A DNA stretch of 48,283 nt from an uncultured Pelagibacteraceae bacterium (GTDB lineage Bacteria > Pseudomonadota > Alphaproteobacteria > Pelagibacterales > Pelagibacteraceae): assembly GCA_902561075.1 (NCBI GenBank), contig CACEOC010000006.1, positions 1-48,283 on the forward strand, in the 5' to 3' direction. The notes under the pieces were generated by a model, which saw only the letters and a program-made list of their open reading frames with translations, did no database searches and was not told where the DNA came from. Position 1 is the first letter of the stretch; every line of letters begins with the position of its first letter. This document shows positions 2 to 15,490 of this stretch, piece after piece. The position numbers were made by a program, and so were the translations under genes.

Positions 2-184
2 ATTTCTAAAGGACGAATTGCTATAAGAACCCAAACTTTAGAAAAACCATTAGAACCGCAGGCACATATTTTTATAAAAAGTAAAGATCCTTGGATTGAA
101 ATAAAAAATAAAAAAATTTGCTACGATGAGATGTATGATAGAGAAAATACCTGGCCCAAAGAGAGTTTAGATAGAATAAAATGA
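2..184 (+). CDS. C-terminal fragment of a GFA/CENP-V-family protein (partial)
   Basis: An open frame runs in from the left edge and ends at TGA 182-184, giving the last 60 residues of a protein. The stretch RIAIRTQTLEKPLEPQAHIF followed by SKDPWIEI resembles the C-terminal half of the glutathione-dependent formaldehyde-activating (GFA) / CENP-V family, where a short strand with R(x)RTGTL-like sequence precedes PQAHIW and SKxPWV. The zinc-binding cysteines would lie upstream, outside the window. The stop codon overlaps the mtnA start by 3 nt, so the two are probably co-transcribed. GFA-family members act on varied thiol adducts, so no substrate is assigned. The family call is tentative because only the tail is visible. 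Confidence 0.5.
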   Translation: MSKGRIAIRTQTLEKPLEPQAHIFIKSKDPWIEIKNKKICYDEMYDRENTWPKESLDRIK

Positions 185-1251
185 AAATAAAAGGCAAAGA
201 TTATAAAACAATTTGGTTTGAGAATAATACTGTCAAAATAATCGATCAAACTAAACTTCCTCATAAGTTTATTATTAAGGAGTTGAAAACTGTACAGGAT
301 ACAATAAATTCTATTACAAATATGGAGGTAAGAGGAGCACCTTTAATTGGTGCGACAGCAGCTTTTGGAGTTGTATTAGCAATTATAGAAAAAAATGAAA
401 AATCTTTTATTGATAAGTCCTGTAAGGATCTAATCAACGCAAGACCTACAGCAATTAATTTAAAGTGGGCAGTAGATAGAATGAGTTCAAAATTGAAAGG
501 TATTAATAGTGATGAAATATTAAGTATTGCAATTAAGGAGGCAAATGAAATTTGTAACGAAGACATTGGTTTTTGTAAAAGTATAGGATTATATGGTTTG
601 AAAATTATTGAAGAAATTTTCAAAAAAAAAAAAAGAACCGTAAATATTTTAACACATTGTAATGCAGGCTGGCTTGCAACAATTGATTGGGGTACTGCAA
701 CGTCTCCTATTTATCATGCACATCAAAAAGGTATACCAATTCATGTATGGGTTGACGAAACAAGGCCTAGGAATCAGGGAGCAAATTTAACATCTTTTGA
801 ATTAAATGAAGAAAATATTGATAACACAATTATAACTGACAATGCAGGTGGAATTTTAATGCAAAGGGGCGAGGTAGATATGTGTATTGTTGGGACAGAC
901 AGAACTTTATCTAATGGAGATGTATGTAATAAAATAGGCACTTATTTAAAAGCACTTGCAGCTAAAGATAATAATGTACCATTTTATGTAGCTTTACCGA
1001 GCCCAACTATTGATTGGAATTTAAAAAACTCGTCTGAAATTCCTATAGAGGAGAGAAATTCTGATGAATTGTCATTAATTGAAGGATTAGATAAAAGTGG
1101 AGTAATTCAAAAAGTACAAATATATCCACATGATAGCAAGTCATTAAATTTAGCTTTCGACGTAACGCCAGCAAAATATATTACCTCTCTAATTACTGAA
1201 AAAGGCATTTGTGATGCATCAGAGGATGATTTAAGAAAGTTTTTTAAATGA
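181..1251 (+). CDS. mtnA: S-methyl-5-thioribose-1-phosphate isomerase
   Basis: Cytosolic aldose-ketose isomerase of methylthioadenosine (MTA) salvage: converts 5-methylthioribose-1-phosphate to 5-methylthioribulose-1-phosphate. At 356 aa it is the family's usual length. RGAPLIGATAAFG (51-63), LTHCNAGWLAT (157-167), DETRPRNQGANLT (192-204) and VGTDR (237-241) are the eIF2B-like MtnA signatures, and the catalytic pair falls at Cys160 and Asp240. The start overlaps the preceding stop and the gene overlaps the next by 4 nt (ATGA). The context (a class II aldolase and spermidine synthase downstream) points to MTA made by spermidine synthesis as the source of substrate. No MTA phosphorylase, MTA nucleosidase or MTR kinase is in the window; one should lie upstream. 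MtnA versus a general eIF2B-like isomerase is clear from the motifs. Confidence 0.95.
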   Translation: MKIKGKDYKTIWFENNTVKIIDQTKLPHKFIIKELKTVQDTINSITNMEVRGAPLIGATAAFGVVLAIIEKNEKSFIDKSCKDLINARPTAINLKWAVDRMSSKLKGINSDEILSIAIKEANEICNEDIGFCKSIGLYGLKIIEEIFKKKKRTVNILTHCNAGWLATIDWGTATSPIYHAHQKGIPIHVWVDETRPRNQGANLTSFELNEENIDNTIITDNAGGILMQRGEVDMCIVGTDRTLSNGDVCNKIGTYLKALAAKDNNVPFYVALPSPTIDWNLKNSSEIPIEERNSDELSLIEGLDKSGVIQKVQIYPHDSKSLNLAFDVTPAKYITSLITEKGICDASEDDLRKFFK

Positions 1252-1571
1252 ATCCATTAATATTCTCTTTGATATCTTTGGTATTAGTTGCAATATCTGC
1301 AAACTTTTTAAGTTTAATCAAAAATAACAAGACATTATTATATATATCAACTATCCCATGTATTTATTTGGTTATTTATGGATTGTATCTTATTCTTAGT
1401 CCTGTCAATCTTTACGAAGATGGATCACAGAATTTTTTTAATCAAAATCCTAAAGAAAAAGAATTACCAATTGTTTTCATTATTTTAAGATTTTATGAGT
1501 ATATATTAATAATAGTTGGTTTGGTTTTTGGTTATGTTTTTTCAAAAAAATTAAAAAAAGAAAATGATTGA
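1248..1571 (+). CDS. small membrane protein of unknown function in the MTA-salvage run
   Basis: A 107-residue protein with three predicted membrane segments (about residues 4-22, 30-48 and 78-98) and a polar loop around 52-75 containing LYEDGSQNFFNQNP. The C-terminus is Lys-rich. I do not recognise a family. It overlaps mtnA by 4 nt and the following aldolase by 8 nt, so it is translationally coupled to both and almost certainly real. Its position inside an enzyme cluster makes it a candidate for an accessory or transport role, but nothing in the sequence shows this. Confidence 0.75.
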   Translation: MNPLIFSLISLVLVAISANFLSLIKNNKTLLYISTIPCIYLVIYGLYLILSPVNLYEDGSQNFFNQNPKEKELPIVFIILRFYEYILIIVGLVFGYVFSKKLKKEND

Positions 1572-2193
1572 AGTTGAACAAGTTATCAAATACGCAAAAA
1601 TGCTTAATTTTAAAAATCTTTCAGCTTTAAGATCGGGAAATATATCAGTGAGATATAAAAATGGTTTTTTAATTACCCCATCTGGAGTAAAATATTCACA
1701 ATTGGAAACTGAGGATGTAGTTTTTGTCTCTTTAGACGGAAAATTAGACTCTTTAAAACAAAGACCCTCATCTGAATGGAGAATACATAAAGATATATAC
1801 GTAAATAAAAAAGAGGCAAATGCAGTCGTACATGCACACTCAACACATGCTACGGCTGTTTCAGCACATGGTAAATCTATTCCAGCATTTCACTATATGG
1901 TAGCACTTGCAGGTGGAGATGATATTAAATGTGCAGAATATGCAACATTTGGTACAGAAGAATTATCAAAAAATATTTTAAAAGCACTTGATAAAAGAAA
2001 AGCATGTTTAATGTCAAATCACGGTCAAGTTGTTTTTGATACAAATCTAGAAAAAGCATTTGAATTAGCTGAAGAAATAGAAAATATTTGTCATCAATAT
2101 ATAAATACTTTAAAAATAGGAATTCCTAAGATACTTTCAAATAATGAAATGAAAAAAGTTTTGGAAAAAGTAAAAGACTATAAAAAGGAATAA
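1564..2193 (+). CDS. class II aldolase, probable 5-methylthioribulose-1-phosphate aldolase (Ald2-like)
   Basis: A zinc-dependent class II aldolase/adducin-fold protein of 209 aa, the size of L-fuculose-1-phosphate aldolase. Visible are SGNISVR (24-30, phosphate-binding strand), catalytic Glu71 in SSEW, and zinc ligands His90 and His92 in HAHSTHA and His153 in NHG, matching FucA Glu73/His92/His94/His155. The family contains FucA, the dehydratase MtnB and Ald2 of the 'DHAP shunt', which splits methylthioribulose-1-phosphate into DHAP and 2-methylthioacetaldehyde. Linkage to mtnA, the presence of the aldolase Glu and the absence of mtnC/mtnD-type genes favour the Ald2 reaction. MtnB cannot be excluded from sequence alone. 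The gene lies between the membrane protein (8-nt overlap) and speDE (3-nt gap). Confidence 0.75.
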   Translation: MIEVEQVIKYAKMLNFKNLSALRSGNISVRYKNGFLITPSGVKYSQLETEDVVFVSLDGKLDSLKQRPSSEWRIHKDIYVNKKEANAVVHAHSTHATAVSAHGKSIPAFHYMVALAGGDDIKCAEYATFGTEELSKNILKALDKRKACLMSNHGQVVFDTNLEKAFELAEEIENICHQYINTLKIGIPKILSNNEMKKVLEKVKDYKKE

Positions 2194-2196
2194 TTT

Positions 2197-3237
2197 ATGA
2201 CTAAAGTAGGAGAACATATAACTTTAGATTTTATAGGTGTAAAAAAAGATTATTCACAAAAATTTTATGAAAAAATCATTTATAAAATTGCCAAATCTGC
2301 GAAAGTTGAAATTCTAGGTATTAATAGTCATAAATTTGAGCCACAAGGTTTTACTACAGTAGCTTTACTTGCTGAAAGCCATATGAGTTTTCATACATTT
2401 CCTGAAAAAGGCATCGTAAGTTTTGATTTTTTTACATGTGGAAAGGTACATCCAAAAATAGCTTTGGATATTCTAAAGAAGGAAATAAAATCAAAAAGAA
2501 TAGCTATTAATAATTTTGATAGAAGTACAGTTACCCAATATGATGACATTTATAGTTCTCCTGGTTTAAAAAAGTTTTACATAGTTAAAGATGTTTTAGA
2601 AAACTTTACCTCAAAAGTAGGTCAACACATAGAAATTCTAAAATTAGAACAGTTTGGTAAAGCATTATTTATTGATAATGAAATTCAAGTAGCTGAGAAA
2701 GATGAGCATTTATATAGTTCAACATTTGTTAAATCAGGTTTAAATCTAAACAAACAAAGAGAAAAAGCAGCTATAATTGGTGGTGGAGATGGTGGTGTTG
2801 CGAGAGAATGTATTTCGAAAAATTTTGGATTTATTGATTGGTTTGAACTTGACCCACAGGTAGTCAAAGTCTGTGAAAAACATTTAGCTAAAGTTGGAGA
2901 AAAAGCTACAAAAAAGAATTCTGTTAAATGTTATTGGGGCGATGCTTTTGAAAGTATCAAGTCAATTGAAAGCAATAGATATGATAAAATTTTTGTTGAT
3001 CTAAATGATGATCAATATTGTATAGATCTTGCAGCAAAAAATATGAAATCTTTAAAAAGAATTTTAAAAACTGGCGGAACTATTACTGCTCAAGTGGGCA
3101 GTCAGGATAAAAAACCGAGGCAAGTTAAAAACTGGCTTGATGTATTTAACAAAAATTTTGGCAATGCTACTCTAGATAGAGTTTATATACCTAGTTTTGA
3201 CTGTTCTTGGAATTTTGCAACATCTATTAACAATTAA
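2197..3237 (+). CDS. fused S-adenosylmethionine decarboxylase (SpeD) - spermidine synthase (SpeE)
   Basis: A two-domain polyamine enzyme of 346 aa. Residues about 1-120 are a bacterial class 1b AdoMet decarboxylase: ESHMSFHTFPE (60-70) supplies the autocleavage Ser61 (future pyruvoyl group) and His66, and FFTCGK gives Cys81. Residues about 125-346 are an aminopropyltransferase: AEKDEHLYS (166-174), the SAM-binding GGGDGG (195-200) and ELDP (217-220). The two steps, making decarboxylated SAM and transferring its aminopropyl group to putrescine, would occur in one chain and release MTA, the substrate entering the mtnA/aldolase route upstream. The gatekeeper loop is odd: instead of the usual D-x-x-D-P-x-G-P-A it reads FVDLNDDQYCID (267-278), which may affect acceptor choice. 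Some SpeD homologues have become ornithine/arginine decarboxylases; the retained residues do not settle this. Confidence 0.88.
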   Translation: MTKVGEHITLDFIGVKKDYSQKFYEKIIYKIAKSAKVEILGINSHKFEPQGFTTVALLAESHMSFHTFPEKGIVSFDFFTCGKVHPKIALDILKKEIKSKRIAINNFDRSTVTQYDDIYSSPGLKKFYIVKDVLENFTSKVGQHIEILKLEQFGKALFIDNEIQVAEKDEHLYSSTFVKSGLNLNKQREKAAIIGGGDGGVARECISKNFGFIDWFELDPQVVKVCEKHLAKVGEKATKKNSVKCYWGDAFESIKSIESNRYDKIFVDLNDDQYCIDLAAKNMKSLKRILKTGGTITAQVGSQDKKPRQVKNWLDVFNKNFGNATLDRVYIPSFDCSWNFATSINN

Positions 3238-3287
3238 TTTATCTTTTTAAATCTTAATTTTTATGGAATAATAAAGATTATATTTTT

Positions 3288-3292
3288 GGAGG
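3288..3292 (+). promoter_or_regulatory. strong Shine-Dalgarno (GGAGG) of the ABC binding-protein gene
   Basis: GGAGG lies 5 nt before ATG 3298. It decides the start: an in-frame TTG at 3286 would place the ribosome site inside the gene. Strong SD sequences are rare in this window and here mark a highly expressed binding protein. Confidence 0.8.
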
Positions 3293-3297
3293 AAAAA

Positions 3298-4161
3298 ATG
3301 AATATATTTAAAAAATTTGGCTTAGGTTTGTTAATTAGTTTATTTTTAACAATTTCCGCAAATGCCGATAAAATTAGAATAGGAACAGAAGGTGCCTATC
3401 CACCATGGAACTCTAAAGATGCTTCAGGTAAACTTATAGGATTTGAAGTAGAATTAGCTTGGGCACTTTGTAGATACATTGGTCAACAATGTGTAATAGT
3501 TGAACAAGATTGGGATGGAATGATTCCAGCACTACAAATGAGAAAATTTGATGCAATCATGGCAGGAATGTCTATCACTGACGAAAGAAAAAAAGTAATT
3601 ACTTTTTCTCAAGGTTATGCAGATGAAGTTGCATCCCTTGCGGTGATGAAGGGTTCAGACTTAGAAGGAATGGACACACCAGAGGGAGTTAATCTTACTT
3701 TAGGTGGATCAGGAGTAAATAAAGCACTAAAAACAATCACAGGAGCTTTGGCAGGAAAAACTGTTTGCACACAAACGGGAACTATTCATCAAAACTTTCT
3801 AGAGTCGGGTGACGTAGGTAAAGTAAATGTCAGAACGTACAAAACTCAAGATGATGTTAATTTAGATTTAGCATCTGGAAGATGCGATGTTGCGTTAGCA
3901 GCAGCAGTGGCCTTCACTGACTACGCTGAAAAATCTGGTAAACCAGTTGTTCTAGTTGGACCAACATTTTCAGGTGGAGCATTTGGAAATGGAGTAGGTG
4001 TAGGTTTAAGACAAGCATCTCAAATGGGCGAAGATTCTGCTCAAGGAAAAAGAGATGCTGCTCTTTTAAAAGCTTTTAATAAAGCAATTGATCAAGCAAG
4101 AAAAGATGGTGTTATAACTAGATTAGCTATTAAACACTTTGGTTTTGACGCATCAATGTAA
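3298..4161 (+). CDS. polar amino acid ABC transporter, periplasmic substrate-binding protein
   Basis: A 287-aa HisJ/ArgT-type binding protein. Residues 1-23 form a signal peptide (KK, hydrophobic core, cleavage after ANA). The mature part starts with IRIGTEGAYPPWN, the usual ligand pocket entry, and has MSITDERKK (the Arg that grips the ligand alpha-carboxylate) and QDDVNLDLASGRCD (the Asp that holds the alpha-amino group). Two cysteines in LCRYIGQQC look like the short-loop disulphide of this family. The pattern is closest to octopine/lysine-arginine-ornithine type proteins, but the ligand is not assignable by eye. The start is set by GGAGG at 3288. Two permeases follow after a hairpin; no ATPase gene is nearby. 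A basic amino acid ligand would connect with the polyamine genes upstream, but that is speculation. Confidence 0.9.
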   Translation: MNIFKKFGLGLLISLFLTISANADKIRIGTEGAYPPWNSKDASGKLIGFEVELAWALCRYIGQQCVIVEQDWDGMIPALQMRKFDAIMAGMSITDERKKVITFSQGYADEVASLAVMKGSDLEGMDTPEGVNLTLGGSGVNKALKTITGALAGKTVCTQTGTIHQNFLESGDVGKVNVRTYKTQDDVNLDLASGRCDVALAAAVAFTDYAEKSGKPVVLVGPTFSGGAFGNGVGVGLRQASQMGEDSAQGKRDAALLKAFNKAIDQARKDGVITRLAIKHFGFDASM

Positions 4162-4176
4162 TAATATATTTGAAAT

Positions 4177-4198
4177 GGCGGTTAATTAATTAACCGCC
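4177..4198 (+). terminator. perfect 11-bp inverted repeat plus T-run between binding protein and permease
   Basis: Arms GGCGGTTAATT (4177-4187) and AATTAACCGCC (4188-4198) are perfectly complementary and are followed by TTTT (4199-4202). The permease start ATG is at 4207. This is a small intrinsic-terminator-like hairpin inside an operon, likely to end or stabilise most binding-protein transcripts while letting some read through into the permeases. Confidence 0.75.
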
Positions 4199-4206
4199 TT
4201 TTCGAT

Positions 4207-4899
4207 ATGGAACTTCTTTTATTTGGCGAAACAGGTTGGGGTGATGAATTATTAATTGCCACTCTTATGACACTGGCTGTGTCTATAACAGCAATGTTAA
4301 TAGGTTTTGTTTTTGCTCTAATATTTACTCCTCTTAAATTATCAAATAATAAATTCTTAAATCTTATTGCAAATTTTTATACGACTGTAATTAGGGGAGT
4401 TCCAGAATTATTAGTTATATATCTTTTCTTTTTTGGAGGAAGTAGTGCAATAATGTTCGTTGCCTCTATTTTTGGATATAATGATTATATAGAAATAAAT
4501 GCATTTCTTACAGGAGCATTTTCAATAGGAATTATTTCTGGCGCTTATTCCACAGAAGTTTTTAGAGGAGCAATACAATCTATTGATAAAGGCCAATTTG
4601 AGGCTTCAAATGTTCTAGGTTTTAATAAAGTAACCAGATTCTTTAAGATTATTCTTCCTCAAATGTTAAGACTTTCAATACCAAATTTAAGTAATGTTTG
4701 GCAAATAACCTTAAAAGATACTTCGCTTATTTCTGTAACTGGATTAGTTGAAATTATGAGACAGTCTTATATAGCAGCTGGTTCCACAAGAGATCCTTTG
4801 TTATTTTATACTGTTGCGGCCGTTTTGTATCTTATGCTTACTTTTTTAAGTATGAAATTTATTAACAAGATGGAAATTAAATATAATAGAGGGTATTAA
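4207..4899 (+). CDS. amino acid ABC transporter permease (HisQ/ArtQ-like)
   Basis: An inner-membrane permease of 230 aa with about five to six membrane segments. The cytoplasmic EAA-loop is visible as FEASNVLGFNKVTRFFKIILPQ (near residues 137-158), the site that contacts the ATPase; RGVPELL (about 64-70) is the typical first conserved block of HisQ/HisM permeases. It begins 8 nt after the hairpin at 4177-4198 with no recognisable Shine-Dalgarno, because the hairpin and its T-run fill the upstream space. The stop overlaps the next permease start by 1 nt (TAATG). It forms a heterodimeric channel with its neighbour. Confidence 0.9.
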   Translation: MELLLFGETGWGDELLIATLMTLAVSITAMLIGFVFALIFTPLKLSNNKFLNLIANFYTTVIRGVPELLVIYLFFFGGSSAIMFVASIFGYNDYIEINAFLTGAFSIGIISGAYSTEVFRGAIQSIDKGQFEASNVLGFNKVTRFFKIILPQMLRLSIPNLSNVWQITLKDTSLISVTGLVEIMRQSYIAAGSTRDPLLFYTVAAVLYLMLTFLSMKFINKMEIKYNRGY

Positions 4900-5570
4900 T
4901 GGATTTAGATTTAATATTAAATAGCTTTCCAAAATTATTATCAGCAAGCATTATTACATTAAAACTACTTTCAGTATCATTGATGATTGGAATGTTTATA
5001 GGATTATTTTTCGCAATTTTAAGAATTAAAAATAACATAATTTTTGGAAAAATTGCTTATGTATATTCTTATATTTTTAGGGGGACACCTTTATTGGTAC
5101 AAATATTTATAATTTATTATGGTTTTGGTCAGGTTGAATTTATTAGAGAAAGTTTTTTATGGATAATTCTAAAAGAACCTTACTGGTGTGCAGTCATAGC
5201 TTTTGCACTTAATACTGGTGCTTATACCTCAGAAATATTAAGATCTGCATTTCAAACTATTAAACCCGGTTATATTGAGGCAGGTAAGAGCCTAGGTGTT
5301 GCTAATAAAATAATTTTTTATAAAATACAAATACCAATTGCTATCCGTCAATCATTGCCTGCGTATGGTAATGAAATTATTTTAATGTTAAAAGGTACAT
5401 CTCTAGCTAGTACCGTTACATTGATGGACTTAACAGGTGTAGCTAAGTATATAATATCAACAACATTTAAACCTATTGAGGTATTTGTTATAGCTGGAAG
5501 TATTTATCTCTTTATGACTTTTATAATACATAATTTAATAAAATTTTTAGAAAAGAAATATAGTTTTTAA
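4899..5570 (+). CDS. amino acid ABC transporter permease (HisM/ArtM-like)
   Basis: The second permease, 223 aa, paralogous to the first. It carries RGTPLLVQIFIIYYG (about 61-75), the canonical HisM block, and EAGKSLGVANKIIFYKIQIP (about 127-146), the EAA loop. Its start overlaps the preceding stop, giving tight translational coupling and probably 1:1 stoichiometry. Its 3' end overlaps the convergent DUF6165 gene by 4 nt with interlocked stop codons (TTAA, 5567-5570). An HisP-type ATPase is needed for function and is not encoded anywhere in the window. Confidence 0.9.
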   Translation: MDLDLILNSFPKLLSASIITLKLLSVSLMIGMFIGLFFAILRIKNNIIFGKIAYVYSYIFRGTPLLVQIFIIYYGFGQVEFIRESFLWIILKEPYWCAVIAFALNTGAYTSEILRSAFQTIKPGYIEAGKSLGVANKIIFYKIQIPIAIRQSLPAYGNEIILMLKGTSLASTVTLMDLTGVAKYIISTTFKPIEVFVIAGSIYLFMTFIIHNLIKFLEKKYSF

Positions 5571-5956
5571 TATTTTGCGTATTCTTTAATTTCTTTGATT
5601 TTAGATCCAGTATAATTATTTATTTCAAGCTTTATTTTTGCTCTTTCATCATTTAGAAAATGTATATCTCTTGATAATTTGATAAAGTTTTCTCCAAAAT
5701 CGTCATTTTTTTCACAAAGTCTCTTTTCATCTTCAATAACCCACAATCTAGAATTTATTTCTTTAAGAGAATTGTATAGCAATGATAATTTATTGTCAGA
5801 TTTCACTTTATTGTCATATTCAGATTTTAATATAGTGTATTCTTTTTGAATATACTCAAGATTCTCTTTATTTTTGATCTTGTCTTTTTTTATGTCTAAA
5901 ATTGAAATTTTATCCAACAACTCACCCACTGAAACTTCGACTAAAATTTTGTCCAT
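5567..5956 (-). CDS. DUF6165 family protein
   Basis: A 129-residue soluble protein. The pattern VEVSVGELLDKISILDIK at the start, ELNxRLW-like NSRLWVIED (about 68-76), HFLNDERAKIK (about 99-109) and EINNYTGSKIKEIKEY at the end matches what I know as DUF6165, a short, mostly helical alphaproteobacterial family of unknown biochemical function. DUF6165 genes are often next to sugar-transfer genes, and here the gene is divergent from a GT9 heptosyltransferase-like gene, with 32 bp between the start codons. That supports a cell-envelope role without showing what it is. Confidence 0.8.
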   Translation of the reverse strand: MDKILVEVSVGELLDKISILDIKKDKIKNKENLEYIQKEYTILKSEYDNKVKSDNKLSLLYNSLKEINSRLWVIEDEKRLCEKNDDFGENFIKLSRDIHFLNDERAKIKLEINNYTGSKIKEIKEYAKY

Positions 5957-5968
5957 AAATTTAAATAC

Positions 5969-5978
5969 TGTTATAACA
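5969..5978. promoter_or_regulatory. palindromic TGTTATAACA, candidate shared bidirectional -10 element
   Basis: TGTTATAACA is a perfect 10-bp palindrome midway between divergent start codons (5956 minus, 5989 plus), so TATAAC reads on both strands. On the plus strand TTGTCC (5949-5954) lies exactly 17 bp upstream of TATAAC (5972-5977). Predicted transcripts would have leaders of only about 4-7 nt. No strong -35 is seen for the minus strand. Confidence 0.5.
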
Positions 5979-5988
5979 TGTTTAAAAT

Positions 5989-6930
5989 ATGTCTAATATT
6001 TTAATTATTAAACATGGCTCACTTGGAGATATAGCCCAAGCTAGCGGTGTAATTCAAGATATATATGAAAACCACAAGAGTGATAATATCTATATTTTAA
6101 CAACAAAACCTTATTTAGATTTACTAAATAAAAATCCTTATATTAATGAAGTGATTTTAGATAAGCGACTGTCAAGATTTAATTTAATTTATTTATTTTT
6201 CTTAATGAAAAAAATAAAAAGTTTTAGATTTATAAAAGTTTATGATTTGCAAAATTCTTCAAGAACCGAGTTCTATAAAAGAATACTTTTTCCAAAAGCT
6301 GAAAATAATATATGGTCCAGTTCAATCACGACATTACCTAGTGATATAATTAAAGAGGACTTTGATAAAACTCCTGTTTTAGAAAGATTTAATCATCAAC
6401 TCAAAAACTCAGGTCTTAAAACTAATCACACATTATCACCATCTTTTGAATGGGCTTGTGAAGAGATTGAGGAAATTAAAAAAAATTATAAACTTAATAA
6501 ATATATATTATTACTCCCATTTTGCTCTCAACATTTAACCTCAAAAAAGTGGCCATACTATAATGAATTAATCAAAATTATTTTAAACAAATTTAATAAT
6601 GAATATAAAATTGTAATTGCTCCAGGTCCAAGTGAGATAAGTCAAGCTAAAGATTTTAATGCTACGTGCGTTTTAGATAAAAATAAAGCAATAAGTATTT
6701 CTCAGCTTGCTTCATTAATTAAAGATAGTCAGTTTGTCGTTGCAAATGATACTGGTCCTGCCCATATGACAGCACACTTAGGGGTATCTGGTCTAGCATT
6801 ATTTGGAAAGCACACAACAGCACATAAAGTGAGTATTGAGAGAAAAAATTTCAAGGCAATACAAGTTAACGATCTACAAAAACTTTCACCTGAAAGAGTA
6901 TTCGATAAAATGAATAAATATTTAGGTTAA
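5989..6930 (+). CDS. glycosyltransferase family 9 (ADP-heptose:LPS heptosyltransferase-like)
   Basis: A 313-aa GT-B fold enzyme. The N-terminus ILIIKHGSLGDIAQASGVI is the classic GT9 start (Lys and the G-D-I loop), and the C-terminal donor-binding block reads VVANDTGPAHMTAHLGV followed by ALFGKHT. GT9 enzymes transfer heptose or related sugars to the lipopolysaccharide inner core at the cytoplasmic face of the inner membrane. Whether the sugar is heptose cannot be told here, since no ADP-heptose synthesis genes are present in the window. It is divergent from DUF6165 and overlaps the convergent membrane-protein gene by 4 nt. Confidence 0.88.
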   Translation: MSNILIIKHGSLGDIAQASGVIQDIYENHKSDNIYILTTKPYLDLLNKNPYINEVILDKRLSRFNLIYLFFLMKKIKSFRFIKVYDLQNSSRTEFYKRILFPKAENNIWSSSITTLPSDIIKEDFDKTPVLERFNHQLKNSGLKTNHTLSPSFEWACEEIEEIKKNYKLNKYILLLPFCSQHLTSKKWPYYNELIKIILNKFNNEYKIVIAPGPSEISQAKDFNATCVLDKNKAISISQLASLIKDSQFVVANDTGPAHMTAHLGVSGLALFGKHTTAHKVSIERKNFKAIQVNDLQKLSPERVFDKMNKYLG

Positions 6931-7349
6931 TATAAATAAATTTTATCAGCTAAGCCGTAGCATAGAGATGCGCTTAATGCAGAAAAAATAAGAGGAACAA
7001 TTATTCCTTCTCTAGACTTCTCTGGAGTTTTAACTCCAGTTTTGTCTATTAAAATAGAGTAAGAATTTACTAAAAATATGCATAAATTTGTTAAAAAAAC
7101 TAAATTAAAAAAAGAACCAGCAGCAACAACACCGTTTCTTCTAATGAATAATATGTAAAGTGCCATTAAAACTTGTCCTAACATGAAGGCTCCAACAAAT
7201 CTAACCATTGGAAATCCTGAGTCGTCTATCTCAAATTTTGTACAGAACTTTCTAGTTTGAAAAATAGTTTGATAAGCATAAATACCAATTCCAATAAAAT
7301 GAATTAAGAAAATTAATAAGTACCAAATATTATTAAACTTATCTATCAT
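6927..7349 (-). CDS. four-segment membrane protein of unknown function
   Basis: A 140-aa protein with four predicted membrane helices (about residues 8-26, 51-69, 77-99 and 116-136). Loops contain QTRKFCTKFEIDDSGFPMVR (28-47) and DKTGVKTPEKSREG (102-115). I do not recognise a domain. It lies 9 bp downstream of the GT4 gene on the same strand, so it is probably co-transcribed with it. Its 3' end interlocks with that of the GT9 gene by a shared TTAA. Confidence 0.75.
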   Translation of the reverse strand: MIDKFNNIWYLLIFLIHFIGIGIYAYQTIFQTRKFCTKFEIDDSGFPMVRFVGAFMLGQVLMALYILFIRRNGVVAAGSFFNLVFLTNLCIFLVNSYSILIDKTGVKTPEKSREGIIVPLIFSALSASLCYGLADKIYLY

Positions 7350-7358
7350 AATGCTTAA

Positions 7359-8441
7359 CTATAAGATTCTTTTATACTTTTCAATAATATTACTCCAAAG
7401 AAATTTTATGGAATTTTCTTTCGCATGTTTACCAAACTCGATATAGCTTTTGTTTTGTAATAATTTTGAGATAGATGAGTAAATTTCATCTAAACTATTT
7501 CCATTGCAAATTAAACCAGTCTTTTCATGTATAATTGCGTCTGATGCTCCTCCATCTTTACCGCCTATAGACGGAACCCCATATTGAGCTGCTTCAACAA
7601 ATGCAATACCAAATCCCTCAACAGATTTTTTGTTAATTATCGACGGCATTACAAAAATATTTGATTTTGAGACTAGGGCATTCTTTAAATCTTGATTAAT
7701 ATTGTTTAAAAATAATACTTGATCTTGCACCATCAATTCCTTTGAAAGTTTTTTTAATTTTTCTTCCTCTTCACCATATCCTATACATATATAGATTATG
7801 TTTGGATAAATTTGTTTCAAATTTCTTATTGCCATAATTACTTTCTCATGATTTTTTCTTTTATCAAATCTCGATACGGTAATTATCCTTGGAGATTTAT
7901 TAAGCATTAAATCCTCAGCCTTATCGAGATAATTCTTATCAAGATCTTTTACTGGATTAACTCCAGGATTGATTACATTTATTAATTCTGGTTTTACTCC
8001 TTTTTCAATAGCTAAATTTTTTGTAAATTCTGAATTTGCTACTACTAAATGTACATTATTTAAAACGCTTAATACTCTTTTATTTATTTTGCTGTCAATA
8101 TCATGATTAATTTCCTTAGAGTGAATTAAGCAAATTTTTTTTTTACTGGTTTTAATAAGTTCTAAACTTTTCCAATGATCTGAAAATATATATTTAATAT
8201 TTTTATGTGATTTTATGTATTCATTTACTAAATAAGCCTTTCTATATTTTCTAAAAATTTTAAAACCACCAACTCTTTCAATAGTAAAAGAAACTTTTTT
8301 GTCGAAATCATTGTGATTTAATTCAAAATCTGCAAAAACTTTTAAAATGTCAATTTTAGCTAACTCATTAGCTAGTCCCCACATTAAATTTTGCATTCCA
8401 CCAATGGATGGAGGAAATGATCTTGTAATCATTAAGTTCAT
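7359..8441 (-). CDS. glycosyltransferase family 4
   Basis: A 360-aa GT-B glycosyltransferase. TRSFPPSIGGMQNLMWGLA (6-24) is the glycine-rich acceptor-side loop of GT4. In the C-terminal donor domain are INPGVNP (about 158-164), ISRFDKRKN-like VSRFDKRKNHEKV (about 189-201) and EGFGIAFVEAAQYGVP (about 274-289), the E-x7-E nucleotide-sugar motif. GT4 enzymes retain anomeric configuration and build LPS, exopolysaccharide or glycolipids; donor and acceptor are not predictable here. Together with the GT9 gene it suggests a small envelope-sugar locus. Confidence 0.88.
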   Translation of the reverse strand: MNLMITRSFPPSIGGMQNLMWGLANELAKIDILKVFADFELNHNDFDKKVSFTIERVGGFKIFRKYRKAYLVNEYIKSHKNIKYIFSDHWKSLELIKTSKKKICLIHSKEINHDIDSKINKRVLSVLNNVHLVVANSEFTKNLAIEKGVKPELINVINPGVNPVKDLDKNYLDKAEDLMLNKSPRIITVSRFDKRKNHEKVIMAIRNLKQIYPNIIYICIGYGEEEEKLKKLSKELMVQDQVLFLNNINQDLKNALVSKSNIFVMPSIINKKSVEGFGIAFVEAAQYGVPSIGGKDGGASDAIIHEKTGLICNGNSLDEIYSSISKLLQNKSYIEFGKHAKENSIKFLWSNIIEKYKRIL

Positions 8442-8445
8442 AAAT

Positions 8446-8997
8446 TTATCTCCACTTAATATTACATCCCATACTTGAAATTTGATCTTTAGGTCCTCTT
8501 CCTGTTTCAGCGATCATTTTCATTGCAAGATACAATTCACTTTCTCCGCTTCTTATTGGTTTTAAATCTTTAAGCTCTCTAATTCTTCCTCTATATTGTA
8601 GTTCTAAATTTTTATTATAGCCAAAAAAATCTGGCGTACATACAGCATCAAATTTTCTTGCTATTTCTTGAGTCTCATCATGCAGGTAAGGAAAATTAAA
8701 ATTATTTGAGTTTGAAAATTCGATCATCTTATCGAATGAGTCCTCTGGGTAATTAATTACATCATTAGAGCATATAGCTACAGAGCTCACATCTAAATTT
8801 TGGAGTAATTTACAATCATTTACAATATCTGAAATTACTGCCTTGACGTAAGGACAATGGTTGCAAATAAACATTACTAATGTTCCTTTATCTCCTTTAA
8901 CATCATTAAGTGTTAAAAATTTATTATTTGTAGATTTAAGTTTAAAGTTTTCAGCTTTCTTGCCGAAATCACATATTGGTGTTTTTGTTAGCGACAT
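8446..8997 (-). CDS. thioredoxin-like / AhpC-TSA-family redoxin
   Basis: A 183-aa thioredoxin-fold protein of the redoxin type. FICNHCPYVKA (about 43-53) contains the reactive cysteine in the N-H-C-P-Y-V signature of this bacterial subfamily, and VCTPDFFGYN (about 118-127) gives the cis-Pro region plus a second cysteine. There is no signal peptide, so it is cytosolic. The family is usually annotated as thioredoxin family or peroxiredoxin-like; substrates are unknown. It is 4 bp upstream of the GT4 gene on the same strand and divergent from the gamma-carbonic anhydrase gene, with 19 bp between start codons. Confidence 0.85.
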   Translation of the reverse strand: MSLTKTPICDFGKKAENFKLKSTNNKFLTLNDVKGDKGTLVMFICNHCPYVKAVISDIVNDCKLLQNLDVSSVAICSNDVINYPEDSFDKMIEFSNSNNFNFPYLHDETQEIARKFDAVCTPDFFGYNKNLELQYRGRIRELKDLKPIRSGESELYLAMKMIAETGRGPKDQISSMGCNIKWR

Positions 8998-9005
8998 GTT
9001 AAACT

Positions 9006-9015
9006 ATTTATAAAT
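9006..9015. promoter_or_regulatory. palindromic ATTTATAAAT between divergent start codons
   Basis: A perfect 10-bp palindrome inside the 19-bp gap between the redoxin (minus) and gamma-carbonic anhydrase (plus) starts. Read on the minus strand, TATAAA at 9012-9007 would put transcription about 3 nt before ATG 8997. On the plus strand TATTTA (9005-9010) would start about at ATG 9017. Both would be leaderless or nearly so. Inference only. Confidence 0.3.
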
Positions 9016-9016
9016 T

Positions 9017-9529
9017 ATGTTTTACGATTTGGAAAATAAAAAACCAAAAAACTCTGGCGAAAATTGGGTCGCACCCAATGCTGTTATAATTGGCGATGTT
9101 ACATTAGAAAAAAATACAAGCGTTTGGTTTAATGCTACTTTAAGAGGGGACATTGAAAATATCCATTTAGGTGAGGGATCAAATGTGCAAGATAGTTGCG
9201 TTCTTCATACAGATCCAGGCTATCCTTTAAAAGTTGGAAAAAATGTGACTGTTGGACATTTAGTTATGCTCCATGGATGCTCAATTGATGATAATAGCTT
9301 AATTGGAATAGGTGCAGTTCTTCTTAATGGCTCTAAAATTGGAAAAAATTGTTTAATTGGTGCGCGAGCTTTAATAACAGAGAAAAAAGAAATACCTGAT
9401 AATTCTTTAGTAGTTGGTTCCCCTGGTAAAATAATTAGACAAGTTACGAAAGATGAAATTGAAGCGATTAAACAAAATGCAATTAGATATCAAGATAATT
9501 GGAAAAAGTACTTAAAGTCAGTATTTTAA
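9017..9529 (+). CDS. gamma-carbonic anhydrase family protein
   Basis: A 170-aa left-handed beta-helix protein of hexapeptide repeats (for example VIIGDVTL, IGKNCLIGA). The zinc ligands expected of gamma-carbonic anhydrases are visible as CVLHTD (His at about 72) and VGHLVMLHGC (two His, about 89 and 94), and the active-site loop RGDIENIHLGEGSNVQD (about 40-56) is typical of the YrdA/PaaY/Caf1-like group. Many family members are active carbonic anhydrases and others act on CoA thioesters, so activity is uncertain. Its 3' end faces a short beta-carbonic-anhydrase-like gene only 18 bp away. Confidence 0.9.
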   Translation: MFYDLENKKPKNSGENWVAPNAVIIGDVTLEKNTSVWFNATLRGDIENIHLGEGSNVQDSCVLHTDPGYPLKVGKNVTVGHLVMLHGCSIDDNSLIGIGAVLLNGSKIGKNCLIGARALITEKKEIPDNSLVVGSPGKIIRQVTKDEIEAIKQNAIRYQDNWKKYLKSVF

Positions 9530-9547
9530 AATGCTTCAGACTAATAA

Positions 9548-9937
9548 TTAAATAGACAAAATTTTAAAATTTATTTTTACTTTTGGATATTTTTTTCTAA
9601 GTTTTGTTTTAATATTTTTAAAAGAAAGTTTGTGCATTTTATGTTCTATAGATGAATTAAATTTTTTATCTCCATAAGCAATTTTCGCTGCACCACAGTC
9701 TCTATGATTAATCACTATCAGCTTGTTTATTTTGTGTAATTTGATTGAAGTATCAAAATTATCCCAAAATGTGGAATGCCATTTTTTGAATTTTTTATGT
9801 GTTACACCTATCCCAGCTCCAGCAATTGTAAATGAACTAAATTTTCCAGTAAGTTTTTTATTTTTTAAATATTTATGTACTTTCGACTGAAATCTTGGAT
9901 CAATACAAGATAAAACCATTGCTTCATATTTTTTCAT
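9548..9937 (-). CDS. short beta-carbonic-anhydrase-like protein
   Basis: A 129-aa protein with a complete beta-carbonic anhydrase metal site: Cys11-x-Asp13-x-Arg15 in SCIDPR and His78-x-x-Cys81 in HRDCG. Beta-enzymes are usually about 180-220 aa, so this one is minimal; the C-terminal half normally forming helices and strand 5 is short and very Lys-rich. I chose ATG 9937, which overlaps the preceding stop as TAATG, over an in-frame TTG at 9952. The upstream neighbour is the PNPOx-like gene. It might hydrate CO2, or be one of the small carbonic-anhydrase-like proteins of unknown activity. Confidence 0.75.
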   Translation of the reverse strand: MKKYEAMVLSCIDPRFQSKVHKYLKNKKLTGKFSSFTIAGAGIGVTHKKFKKWHSTFWDNFDTSIKLHKINKLIVINHRDCGAAKIAYGDKKFNSSIEHKMHKLSFKNIKTKLRKKYPKVKINFKILSI

Positions 9938-10536
9938 TACGGGACCAACCAACTTGTTTGTTTTTTTTCTATGTCAAATTTAGCCCTACGATGCCCTTTT
10001 GCAGCAAGATATAACCATTCAACTGCTTTAATTTTGCATTGTATTACTGTGAAGTTTTTATAGCCCTCCTCACTTTGTTCCATTGTGTAATCAAAATCCT
10101 CTAATTTTGAGATCATTCCTGATGTTGGATCACTAGAAATTGTCCCGGGTGGATCGTCTGTTAAATAACACCTTCTACTTATATGTTGTGTTTTTTTCCA
10201 AGACTCCTCTGTTATTGAATTTTTGTTATTTATTATACAATTAACTTTTACCCTTAATTGAATTTTTTCTTCTTTATCATAGAAAACTAAAGATGCATTA
10301 TTATTTTTCTTTAATATATTTATCTTTGATGATCTAAAATCAGTATGAAATTGCAATAAATTATTATCTCTGTCTGATTTTCTAAGTACAACTATTCTAC
10401 CATCAATTTCGTTTTGATCTGCACAAATAAATACTGGAATTCTAAAAGGTGAGTTACGATTAGTAACAGCATCATTAAGCATTTCCCAATACTTATTTTG
10501 AATTTCCTCTAAGTTTTCATAGTATGCTGGTTGCAT
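9937..10536 (-). CDS. pyridoxamine 5'-phosphate oxidase-like FMN-binding protein
   Basis: A 199-aa split-barrel flavoprotein. GRIVVLRKSD (about 47-56), LQFHTDFRSSKI (about 61-72) and NNASLVFYDKEEKIQLRVKV (about 79-98) are the FMN-phosphate and barrel motifs of the PNPOx family. The C-terminus WLYLAAKGHRRAKF (about 174-187) matches the conserved W-L-x-L-x-x-x-G-H-x-R-A tail of the Alr4036-type subgroup rather than classical PdxH. It could oxidise PNP/PMP or act on another substrate; cofactor binding is better supported than reaction. The stop overlaps the carbonic-anhydrase-like start, and the dehydrogenase lies 6 bp upstream. Confidence 0.8.
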   Translation of the reverse strand: MQPAYYENLEEIQNKYWEMLNDAVTNRNSPFRIPVFICADQNEIDGRIVVLRKSDRDNNLLQFHTDFRSSKINILKKNNNASLVFYDKEEKIQLRVKVNCIINNKNSITEESWKKTQHISRRCYLTDDPPGTISSDPTSGMISKLEDFDYTMEQSEEGYKNFTVIQCKIKAVEWLYLAAKGHRRAKFDIEKKQTSWLVP

Positions 10537-10542
10537 ACAATT

Positions 10543-11412
10543 CTACTTTCTAAATCTTTTAATTAAACTGGATGTATCTAATCTATTCCCACCCATATCT
10601 TGAACCTCTGAATAAAATTTATCTACAAGTTCTGTGACAGGTAACAGTGATCCATTATTTTTAGCTTCATCCATAGCTATTTTTAGATCTTTCCTCATCC
10701 AATCCACCGCAAAACCAAAATCAAATTTATCATCAATCATTGTTTTATATCTATTTTCCATTTGCCATGATTGCGCGGCACCCTTTGAAATTACTTCAAT
10801 TACATCCTTCATATCAAGTCCTGCTTTCATTCCAAAATTTATACCCTCAGATAAACCTTGAACTAAACCAGCAATACATATTTGATTGACCATTTTTGCT
10901 AGTTGTCCATTTCCTGGTCCACCTAGTAATTTCATTTTCTTGCTATAGCAATCTATTTTATCTTTAGCTTTCTTAAATTCTGATAGATCTCCACCAATCA
11001 TAACGGTCAAGGCCCCATTCTCAGCACCAGCTTGCCCGCCTGAAACAGGTGCATCTAAAGATCCAAAATTATTTTTTTTTCCGTATTCATAAATTTCTCT
11101 AGCGATAGTTGCTGAAGCTGTAGTGTTATCAATATAAACTGCTCCTTTTTTTATAGTTTTAAAAGCTCCTTGTTCACCAAAAGTAACCTCCCTTAAATCA
11201 TTATCATTCCCTACACATGTAAAAATATAATCTGCATCTTTTGCAGCCTCTGCAGGTGAACTTGCCATTTTACCTTTATATTCTTTAATCCATTTCTCAG
11301 CTTTTGATGAAGTTCTATTAAAAACAGTTACATTGTGACCACCTTTTGATATATAACCAGCCATCGGATATCCCATGACACCAAGACCAATGAAAGCTAC
11401 ATTACAAGACAT
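10543..11412 (-). CDS. NAD(P)-dependent beta-hydroxyacid dehydrogenase (3-hydroxyisobutyrate dehydrogenase / tartronate semialdehyde reductase family)
   Basis: A 289-aa protein. GLGVMG (9-14) is the Rossmann loop; FNRTSSK (31-37) with Arg33 after strand 2 suggests NADP(H) preference. DAPVSGGQAGAENG (120-133) is the substrate-binding signature, and GNGQLAKMVNQ (167-177) holds catalytic Lys173. These mark the beta-hydroxyacid dehydrogenase family, which includes MmsB, GarR/GlxR and GLYR1-type succinic/glyoxylic semialdehyde reductases. The substrate is not decided by context. The gene is divergent from an MFS transporter with only 6 bp between start codons, so a shared substrate or shared control is possible. 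Confidence 0.9.
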   Translation of the reverse strand: MSCNVAFIGLGVMGYPMAGYISKGGHNVTVFNRTSSKAEKWIKEYKGKMASSPAEAAKDADYIFTCVGNDNDLREVTFGEQGAFKTIKKGAVYIDNTTASATIAREIYEYGKKNNFGSLDAPVSGGQAGAENGALTVMIGGDLSEFKKAKDKIDCYSKKMKLLGGPGNGQLAKMVNQICIAGLVQGLSEGINFGMKAGLDMKDVIEVISKGAAQSWQMENRYKTMIDDKFDFGFAVDWMRKDLKIAMDEAKNNGSLLPVTELVDKFYSEVQDMGGNRLDTSSLIKRFRK

Positions 11413-11418
11413 AAAGTT

Positions 11419-12630
11419 ATGTTTAAAAATTTAAGTTTAAAAGTAATTCTATTTGGTTTTATATTTACATTTTTTTCTAGTTTTGGACAGAGTTTTTTTT
11501 TAGGTTTGTTTAACAATAGCATTAGAAATGAACTATCAATAACCCATGGACAATTTGGCTCAATTTATGCTTCTGCAACTTTACTTAGTAGTTTTGTTTT
11601 AATTTGGGTTGGAAAAAAAATTGATGATATAAATATATCTAAATTTGCTTTTTTTGTAATACTGCTTCTATCATTTTCAAGTTTCTTTTTTTCAACCATA
11701 TCATCGATAAGTTTGTTGTTTATTGCAATTTTTTTAATGAGATTTTCTGGACAAGGAATGATGTCTCATACTGCAACAACGACTGTTTCAAGATATTTTA
11801 CTAAATCAAGAGGAAAGGCTTTAAGTACAATTTGGTTTGGTTTATCTACAGCTGAATTTATACTTCCTGTATTTGTAATTTTTTTGCTTTCATTATATGA
11901 CTGGAAAATTATTTGGATATCAATCTCTCTTTTAGTTTTATTAATTTTGCCAATTACATCAATTATTTTAGTTAAAAACCTGAATTTTAATTCAAGAGAA
12001 ACTGAACAAAAAAAAGGTTCTAAAAATTTAAGCATTAAAAATTGGAAAAGGATTGAGGTTATAAAAGATTATAGATTTTATATAATTTGTGCAAATATGT
12101 TAGCCATGCCTTGGATAGCAACTGGAACATTTGTTTATCAATCATTTATATTAAATTCAAAAAATTGGGGACCATATATAATTGCACAATCTTTTATGGC
12201 GTACTCAGTTTTGTCAGTAATAACTTTAATTATTTCAGGTATTTTAATCGATAAGTTTACTAGCAGAAAATTAATTATCTATATGAATATTCCATTACTT
12301 ATTTCTGTATTTGTAATTATGTATTTTAATCATCCTTTCACTGCTTTTATATTTTTAGGATTAATCGGGATTTCGAATGGATTTGCGAATGTTCTAGGAT
12401 CATCTACTTGGGCTGAAATTTATGGTGTCAAATATATCGGATCAATAAAAGCACTTACAACTGCACTTATGGTATTTGCTACAGCATTTGGAACAGCATT
12501 ATTTGGATTTTTAATTGATAATGGTTATAAAATTGAGGAAATTGCATTAATATCTGCAATATATATATCGTTATCATTAATATTGTTATTTTTAATTAGA
12601 GGTAAATTAAATCCTATAAAAATTAATTAA
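11419..12630 (+). CDS. major facilitator superfamily (MFS) transporter
   Basis: A 403-aa integral membrane protein with about 12 hydrophobic segments and a central cytoplasmic loop around residues 190-210 rich in Lys and Ser (EQKKGSKNLS). RFSGQGMMSHTATTTVSRYF (about 109-128), with a short basic R-x-x-G-x-x-x loop before it, and AISTIWFG-like ALSTIWFGLSTAEF are typical of the oxalate/formate-antiporter and monocarboxylate-type MFS proteins. The substrate is unknown. Transcription must start inside the divergent dehydrogenase gene because the gap is only 6 bp. Confidence 0.85.
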   Translation: MFKNLSLKVILFGFIFTFFSSFGQSFFLGLFNNSIRNELSITHGQFGSIYASATLLSSFVLIWVGKKIDDINISKFAFFVILLLSFSSFFFSTISSISLLFIAIFLMRFSGQGMMSHTATTTVSRYFTKSRGKALSTIWFGLSTAEFILPVFVIFLLSLYDWKIIWISISLLVLLILPITSIILVKNLNFNSRETEQKKGSKNLSIKNWKRIEVIKDYRFYIICANMLAMPWIATGTFVYQSFILNSKNWGPYIIAQSFMAYSVLSVITLIISGILIDKFTSRKLIIYMNIPLLISVFVIMYFNHPFTAFIFLGLIGISNGFANVLGSSTWAEIYGVKYIGSIKALTTALMVFATAFGTALFGFLIDNGYKIEEIALISAIYISLSLILLFLIRGKLNPIKIN

Positions 12631-12633
12631 AAC

Positions 12634-12662
12634 TTGATTTATTGATTTTGGGGGTATAAATA
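12634..12662 (+). promoter_or_regulatory. candidate rpoZ promoter
   Basis: TTGATT (12634-12639) with either TATAAA (12655-12660, 15-bp spacer) or TAAATA (12657-12662, 17-bp spacer). The second reading would start transcription at about the ATG of rpoZ (12669), giving a leaderless mRNA; no Shine-Dalgarno is visible there. Confidence 0.4.
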
Positions 12663-12668
12663 CCTCGC

Positions 12669-13196
12669 ATGGCAAGAGTAACCGTAGAAGACTGCATAGA
12701 TAAAGTCGAAAGTCCTTATGAATTAGTGTTAGTTGCAAAAGAGAGAGCAACACAATTAAATTCGGGTATTGAACCATCATTAGACAGAGATAACGACAAA
12801 AATACAGTCATTGCATTAAGAGAAATAGCTTCAGACAATATAAAAGTTTCTGATCTAACCGAAAGCGCAGTTTATAAATTAAGAAAACATGTTGAGCAAG
12901 TTGAAGAGACTAACGAGGAGGACGTTGAAGTTGGAGATGATTTTGAAAATTTATACAAAGGTGAGATCTCAAAAAGTGGGGTTCCGATATTGCCATCAAA
13001 GAGAGCAAGAAAGATACCAGACAAAATACAAGTTTCTAAAGAAGATTTAAGTGAGCTGCAAAATTCTCCTGAAACTATATCAAGCGAGGAAGTTTCCGCA
13101 GAGGTTGATAATGAGGAAAATGAAGTTTCAATAGATCAGCTTAAAGATCAGGAAGCAACCGATACTTCTGATAGCTCAGAAAACCAAGATCAGTAA
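12669..13196 (+). CDS. rpoZ: DNA-directed RNA polymerase omega subunit with extended acidic tail
   Basis: Residues 1-75 are a standard omega subunit: [28 protein letters not shown], and the region [12 protein letters not shown] (about 43-54) that contacts beta-prime. Omega helps fold and hold beta-prime. The protein is 175 aa, longer than the 90-135 usual in proteobacteria. From about residue 75 the sequence becomes strongly acidic (many Glu/Asp plus Ser, Asn, Gln) with a short basic patch PSKRARKIP (113-121), and looks disordered. Its 3' end is 1 nt from the convergent CoA-transferase gene. Confidence 0.93.
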
Positions 13197-13197
13197 A

Positions 13198-14340: not shown

Positions 14341-14368
14341 AAGCAATATTTAAGTACTTTAAGGCAAC

Positions 14369-14424
14369 TTGACTCTTTTCCTTAAGTTATCTTTAATACA
14401 CTTTTTTTAATAACTACAGAAGGA
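14369..14424 (+). promoter_or_regulatory. strong promoter and Shine-Dalgarno of the TRAP operon
   Basis: TTGACT (14369-14374), a 17-bp spacer and TTTAAT (14392-14397) form a good sigma-70 promoter, predicted start near 14404. AGAAGGA (14418-14424) is a strong Shine-Dalgarno 5 nt before ATG 14430. This is one of the few full promoter-leader-SD arrangements in the window, as expected for an abundant binding protein. Confidence 0.65.
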
Positions 14425-14429
14425 AAAAA

Positions 14430-15440: not shown

Positions 15441-15454
15441 AATAATATATAAAG

Positions 15455-15490
15455 AACCCCTATTTAATTTTATTAAGTAGGGGTTTTTTT
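15455..15490 (+). terminator. intrinsic-terminator hairpin with U-tract abutting the dctQ start codon
   Basis: The arms AACCCCTATTTAA (15455-15467) and TTAAGTAGGGGTT (15473-15485) pair over 13 bp with one G-T wobble and a 5-nt loop, followed by T7 (15484-15490). ATG of dctQ begins at 15491, the very next base. Most transcripts should end here, giving excess binding protein, with read-through for the permeases. Confidence 0.85.

Follow-up and report, generated by a model that had tools for sequence, protein, structure and literature searches.

A SAR11 operon predicted to join spermidine synthesis to methylthioadenosine disposal by a dihydroxyacetone phosphate shunt

A gene run for spermidine synthesis and predicted methylthioadenosine disposal

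The window analysed here is the entire contig 6 (48,283 bases) of an uncultured Pelagibacteraceae (SAR11) genome, which is 70% complete and comprises 890 kb. At its start lie genes for 5-methylthioribose-1-phosphate isomerase (mtnA), a class II aldolase and a fused S-adenosylmethionine decarboxylase-spermidine synthase (speDE). Judged from sequence, these genes most probably belong to an operon in which an MtnP-type dihydroxyacetone phosphate (DHAP) shunt is joined to spermidine synthesis and disposes of the 5'-methylthioadenosine (MTA) formed by spermidine synthase. This link had been proposed in a first-pass annotation of the sequence, and it stands as a prediction: 73 of the 80 named SAR11 loci, among them the nearest relatives (L032 and L196), have the MTA phosphorylase gene mtnP ahead of mtnA, and elsewhere the aldolase is replaced by a fused enzyme. 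SAR11 cells are known for their need of reduced sulfur, and MTA salvage bears on the handling of methylthio waste in such cells. The genes of the run are as follows.

2-184, forward strand: C-terminus (60 residues) of a GFA-family protein, truncated by the contig start; 97% identity over 60 residues to the tail of the GFA protein of L032.
181-1251, forward strand: mtnA, 5-methylthioribose-1-phosphate isomerase, 356 aa; TIGR00512 at 418.5 bits (cut-off 279), PDB matches to MtnA down to 1.7e-72.
1248-1571, forward strand: small open reading frame (ORF) of 107 aa that by eye resembles a membrane protein; as a passenger between mtnA and aldolase it varies among loci; no Pfam or NCBIfam match.
1564-2193, forward strand: FucA/Ald2-type class II aldolase, 209 aa, proposed 5-methylthioribulose-1-phosphate aldolase; PF00596 at 178 bits, linkage to mtnA and speDE.
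2197-3237, forward strand: speDE, S-adenosylmethionine decarboxylase-spermidine synthase fusion, 346 aa, the predicted source of MTA; TIGR03330 at 102 bits (cut-off 75.65), with PF02675, PF01564 and PF17284 in one ORF.

From the truncated GFA gene onward, successive ORFs share 4, 4 and 8 bases, and a gap of 3 bases separates the aldolase from speDE. The tight run of mtnA, aldolase and SpeD-SpeE fusion described earlier was thus recovered, with the addition of the small ORF at 1248-1571, which had gone unmentioned. The fusion itself is borne out by TIGR03330 and PF01564 in the same protein; the SpeE part lies under the curated SpeE equivalog cut-offs (TIGR00417 at 95 bits, cut-off 250).

The predicted operon consists of a divergent apt gene followed by mtnP, mtnA, the aldolase and speDE, with passenger genes in places on either side of mtnA. 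It would both make spermidine and dispose of the MTA that spermidine synthase releases. MtnP would phosphorolyse MTA to adenine and 5-methylthioribose-1-phosphate, and Apt would take up the adenine. MtnA would convert 5-methylthioribose-1-phosphate to 5-methylthioribulose-1-phosphate, which the FucA/Ald2-type aldolase would split into DHAP, entering central metabolism, and 2-(methylthio)acetaldehyde. The shunt may also accept 5'-deoxyadenosine. Recovery of sulfur, which the first-pass annotation had held possible, is not supported by the genes followed here, which lead as far as the aldehyde. Gene identities, gene order, co-occurrence, module exchange and conserved catalytic residues are seen in the sequences; what the aldolase acts on, and the flux along this route, we infer.

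Among named matches at the locus, AG-422-A05 (L032), a SAR11 single-cell genome, ranks first (92% identity at the aldolase); its genes run apt (83-610, reverse strand), mtnP (647-1516), GFA (1513-1947), mtnA (1944-3014), small ORF, aldolase, speDE and transporter. Gene order is identical in G209 (L196). The first-pass annotation had advised looking upstream for an MTA phosphorylase; the window contig starts at the GFA gene, and in L032 mtnP lies directly beyond it. A search with the aldolase gave 321 loci, the best 80 of which make up the named set. All 80 show a recognisable speDE, 76 an mtnA, 73 an mtnP and 72 an apt. These counts are lower bounds, since some loci end at contig ends and the simple ORF caller misses genes, such as the mtnP of L198, which tblastn found almost in full. 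The MtnP of L114 passes PRK08931 (446 bits, cut-off 437), and its Apt also passes its curated model. The distance from the aldolase to the start of speDE is 2-29 bases in 80/80 named loci.

Exchangeable modules between apt and speDE

The strongest evidence for this reading comes from outside the window. Between apt and speDE stands one of three alternative modules: mtnP-mtnA with the window-type aldolase, mtnP-mtnA with a fusion of class II aldolase and short-chain dehydrogenase (675-678 aa), or a lone MTA-nucleosidase-like gene. We searched 197 Pelagibacterales genomes with E-value limits of 1e-30 (aldolase and mtnA), 1e-80 (fused aldolase), 1e-10 (nucleosidase-like gene) and 1e-60 (speDE). 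The aldolase was found in 97 genomes, the fused aldolase in 22, the nucleosidase-like gene in 14, mtnA in 118 and speDE in 127. No genome out of the 197 holds two modules, and none holds mtnA together with the nucleosidase-like gene. Of the 118 genomes with mtnA, 94 possess the aldolase and 22 the fused aldolase, none possesses both, and 2 possess neither, so that 116/118 are covered; in the two others (L141, L142) the contig ends before the place of the aldolase.

The fused aldolase was seen in relatives where mtnA is present and the window-type aldolase absent. It lies less than 200 bases from speDE, on the opposite strand, in 23/23 loci holding both. The SAR11 protein scores 905 bits with NF006192, above the cut-off of 639, and 441 bits with the rhamnose model TIGR02632, short of the cut-off of 568.

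The third module is exemplified by G012, a one-contig genome, and G019, where the slot is occupied by a PNP_UDP_1 protein of 176-178 codons. This protein is related to MTA/S-adenosylhomocysteine nucleosidases and scores below the curated cut-offs (best model 96 bits, cut-off 129). Searches of G012 and G019 for mtnP, mtnA and both aldolases found none of them. The nucleosidase-like gene adjoins speDE, at less than 130 bases, in 10/10 genomes with both; it also occurs without a speDE match in 4 genomes, of which 3 belong to another family and 1 to another genus. At two loci from another family of the order (L147 in G043, L148 in G049), no recognised apt or speDE is close to it, and a gene nearby looks by eye like lepA.

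A quick maximum-likelihood gene tree of speDE was built from loci with full-length, non-identical speDE. It has 91 rows, comprising all such fused-aldolase (23) and nucleosidase (11) loci and 57 of the 115 aldolase loci. Mapped on this tree, the module label requires a minimum of 15 changes; starred branches by themselves force 5 for the aldolase, 4 for the fused aldolase and 4 for the nucleosidase. The count is rough, being taken from a gene tree in which 43/88 inner branches are weak and the direction of change is unset. The set of exchangeable modules, the fused version above all, looks new, and it offers a natural comparison at one locus between full shunt, fused shunt and nucleosidase only.

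Link to spermidine synthesis

Among the 127 genomes with speDE, 112 possess mtnA, 10 possess the nucleosidase-like gene directly beside speDE, and 5 belong to neither group. Three of these 5 carry the aldolase, one (G224) carries an aldolase fragment, and in one (G143) the contig starts at speDE. The fragment in G224 (L201, 1536-1718) is the 60-aa C-terminus, directly 5' of speDE, and is preceded by genes that are found elsewhere beyond apt; it reflects either a recent deletion or an assembly join.

The cassette could instead serve mainly to convert 5'-deoxyadenosine, a by-product of radical S-adenosylmethionine enzymes, to DHAP and acetaldehyde, its place next to speDE being incidental. The shunt enzymes of E. 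coli use both MTA and 5'-deoxyadenosine, according to the text covered of PMC10986504. Against such a main role stand the fixed 2-29-base link to speDE in all named loci, the parallel occurrence with speDE over the 197 genomes, and the nucleosidase-like gene that takes the place beside speDE in all 10 genomes with both; we regard it as unlikely. In two of the 6 mtnA genomes that have no speDE match (G041 and G117, of another family) the order is apt-mtnP-mtnA-fused aldolase without speDE beside the fused gene. An agmatine-deiminase-like gene (164 bits, below the cut-off of 382) follows the fused module in G041 (L119, 10244-11383).

Identity of the aldolase

The best NCBIfam models of the window aldolase are L-fuculose-phosphate aldolases (PRK08087 at 220 bits, cut-off 264; TIGR01086 at 203 bits, cut-off 400), so the protein fails the curated FucA cut-offs; its best PDB matches are likewise L-fuculose-1-phosphate aldolases. 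We compared 13 positions of the FucA active site. Ten of them are invariant in 114/114 distinct SAR11 sequences, including the base (E71) and the metal ligands H90, H92 and H153 (numbering of the window protein). The other three are less uniform. Position 43 is Thr in FucA and Ser in E. coli Ald2 and in 113/114 SAR11 sequences, position 131 is Phe in 104 and Tyr in 10, and position 206 is variable, with Val in the window.

Grouping the aldolase with Ald2 or FucA had been suggested as a check. By identity, E. coli Ald2 and FucA agree at 58%, and the window aldolase agrees with FucA at 46% and with Ald2 at 42%. Since Ald2 is itself so close to FucA, similarity to one or the other does not discriminate the substrate, and this approach was discarded. 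Sequence alone does not separate fuculose-1-phosphate, ribulose-1-phosphate and methylthioribulose-1-phosphate as substrates. FucA-type enzymes act on 3R,4R ketose-1-phosphates, which is the arrangement of D-ribulose and hence of methylthioribulose-1-phosphate.

The family matches, and three plasmid homologues that adjoin sugar kinases, would also fit a sugar aldolase for fuculose-1-phosphate or ribulose-1-phosphate that shares the operon by chance. We consider this very unlikely, because the aldolase and the fused aldolase are mutually exclusive and jointly accompany mtnA in all but two of the genomes that have it, and because E. coli Ald2 also carries the annotation fuculose-phosphate aldolase.

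Canonical methionine salvage and points against the proposed shunt

The gene for acireductone dioxygenase (ARD), mtnD, was found in 0/61 genomes, of which 18 have a completeness of 90% or more; the same search was positive in 5/14 control genomes, with 2 above the cut-off. The window aldolase is the sole PF00596 protein found in its own 70%-complete assembly, and therefore no MtnB was seen there. Both results agree with the first-pass annotation, which had proposed a route without mtnBCD. A canonical oxygen-dependent methionine salvage would need a divergent MtnB together with unlinked MtnC and MtnD. MtnB and the window aldolase do share one class II aldolase family, and the MtnB model gives a weak match of 69 bits to the window protein. 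This score lies below the cut-off of 137, and together with the ARD counts in relatives and controls, and with a replacing gene that matches aldolase/short-chain dehydrogenase models, it makes canonical salvage extremely unlikely.

Several observations weigh against an MtnP-type shunt in the window. A search of the assembly that contains the window, 70% complete, did not find mtnP, and the contig breaks at that point. The negative across relatives is limited to mtnD and takes in neither the mtnB, mtnC and mtnK models nor RuBisCO-like proteins. Three genomes (G077, G148, G199) carry the aldolase without mtnA, the match in G077 beginning at contig base 1, and 6 genomes with mtnA have no speDE match. 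Fisher P values for co-occurrence ignore relatedness, and we put no weight on them. The window aldolase is not nearer to Ald2 than to FucA, and its family is promiscuous. The three plasmid homologues (44-46% identity; 3 of 226 records inspected) adjoin sugar kinases and not mtnA, so context rather than family carries the argument.

The fused aldolase and its relatives outside SAR11

By analogy with RhaEW, the fused aldolase would yield (methylthio)acetate. RhaEW, an L-rhamnulose-1-phosphate aldolase-L-lactaldehyde dehydrogenase, needs nicotinamide adenine dinucleotide (NAD+) and gives DHAP and lactate, as described in the text covered of PMC3870299. The SAR11 fusion shares its two-domain layout but differs in passing NF006192 and not TIGR02632, and in standing with mtnP-mtnA.

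A plasmid search with the fused aldolase matched 2615 records, 278 of them over most of the protein; 15 of the 25 listed were read, several of which are closely related to each other. These loci come from other Alphaproteobacteria, and 13/15 possess mtnA within the fetched flank and 12/15 possess mtnK. The order on a Tistrella mobilis plasmid is mtnP-mtnA-fused aldolase, and in Ruegeria sp. THAF33 the fused gene lies directly 3' of mtnA. Two Sinorhizobium loci (L163, L208) have the fused gene with no mtnA within 8-9 kb, and therefore NF006192 alone is no predictor of linkage to mtnA. The fused proteins of these two loci also pass NF006195, which those of L164, L165, L210 and the tested SAR11 loci (including L117) do not. 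Two Sinorhizobium mtnK-mtnA loci (L209, L211) showed no annotated aldolase within the fetched stretch.

ABC transporter genes lie between the fused gene and mtnK-mtnA in 8/8 mtnK-type loci with gene tables, and a sugar-binding regulator stands 5' of the fused gene in 7/8. Together, these genes suggest uptake of methylthioribose or 5-deoxyribose at mtnK-type loci. The gene preceding the fused aldolase is annotated 'sugar-binding transcriptional regulator' at L158-L162, L164 and L207. The E. coli regulator MtnR (yjhU), which carries the same annotation wording, adjoins the E. coli shunt genes.

A wider proposal, on which we find the balance even, is that SAR11 has one MTA-disposal slot, from apt to spermidine synthase, that trades three solutions. 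One of them would be an oxidative DHAP shunt not reported before: an NF006192-type fusion, shared with Rhizobiales, Tistrella and Ruegeria, would turn 5-methylthioribulose-1-phosphate and NAD+ into DHAP and (methylthio)acetate. If true, organosulfur would be released from abundant ocean bacteria. The module exchange also assigns a testable function to a family so far annotated as 'bifunctional aldolase/short-chain dehydrogenase' only. The predicted SAR11 products, (methylthio)acetaldehyde, 2-(methylthio)ethanol or (methylthio)acetate, are candidates to seek in cultures and seawater.

Comparison with known systems

The genes of the window most probably represent the known DHAP shunt, here linked to spermidine synthesis. 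In the text covered of PMC5893883, MtnP, MtnA and Ald2 turn MTA into DHAP and 2-(methylthio)acetaldehyde in Rhodospirillum rubrum and Rhodopseudomonas palustris, the R. palustris enzyme that reduces this aldehyde to 2-(methylthio)ethanol being putative, and bacteria with these three enzymes are mostly terrestrial. Judged by this description, SAR11 has enzymes of these three families, which would act in the same sequence. SAR11 differs in being an ocean bacterium with one operon that includes spermidine synthesis and a divergent apt.

The MtnN/MtnK-type shunt of E. coli S88 and ATCC 25922 likewise employs MtnA followed by a FucA-like aldolase. In strain S88 mtnK-mtnA is followed by ald2 (gene name from the text covered of PMC10986504 and PMC6302742). 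Despite 42% identity, E. coli Ald2 and the window aldolase agree at 12/13 compared active-site positions. SAR11 uses a phosphorylase in place of nucleosidase and kinase, and no speDE is among the listed E. coli neighbours.

Earlier work cited in PMC8437039 treats the SAR11 SpeE as a multidomain product of gene fusion, apparently the same fused enzyme as the speDE of the window. The text covered of that article does not treat the fate of MTA or a link to its disposal; 'mtnA' and 'methylthioribose' are indexed once each outside the main text. Within the open-licence literature searched, as far as its text was covered, no description of this cassette was found for SAR11 or Pelagibacter, nor one under terms for the fused aldolase with methylthioribose or MTA. 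North et al. 2020, by its title a survey of the shunt, lies outside that scope and may mention SAR11.

Passenger and neighbouring genes

The first-pass annotation had assigned the tail at 2-184 to the GFA family, which its near-identity to the L032 protein upholds. The tail itself has no Pfam match, and a full-length homologue in L059 matches PF04828 at 86.7 bits. The further idea that the GFA protein handles a product of the pathway is not supported. In the 73 named loci the mtnP-mtnA interval is empty in 28, and holds a tautomerase-family gene in 37, GFA in 4, an alpha/beta-hydrolase-like gene in 2 and other genes in 2. With GFA in only 4/73, a role as a general pathway enzyme was rejected. 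The tautomerase-family gene (PF14832 at 43 bits; for example L062, 1416-1862) occupies the same position as GFA. The 107-aa small ORF has a homologue at its position in 3/76 named loci with mtnA and aldolase.

One lineage (L120 in G004, 5604-16442; L116, L141, L152) carries a PhyH-type dioxygenase gene, identified by Pfam in L116, between mtnP and mtnA. In the same lineage a sulfatase-like gene and several genes that look by eye like transporter or monooxygenase genes lie 3' of mtnA. Where the contig extends that far, these inserted genes precede the aldolase or the fused aldolase, so that the operon is split.

Riboswitch control of the operon was rejected, as the Rfam scan of the window was empty and 7 relative loci gave 4 tRNAs only, at gathering score.

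3286-5570, forward strand: ABC transporter genes flanking speDE, with a solute-binding protein (3286-4161) and permease-like ORFs (4207-4899, 4899-5570).

The solute-binding protein scores 220 bits with TIGR01096 (lysine/arginine/ornithine binding protein), below the cut-off of 256, and the permease-like ORFs were assigned by eye and by clustering. These transporter genes adjoin speDE in a subset of lineages and are dispensable for the pathway. Among the 78 named loci showing a gene directly 3' of speDE, it encodes a binding protein in 20, a nitrilase-family protein in 54 and another ORF in 4.

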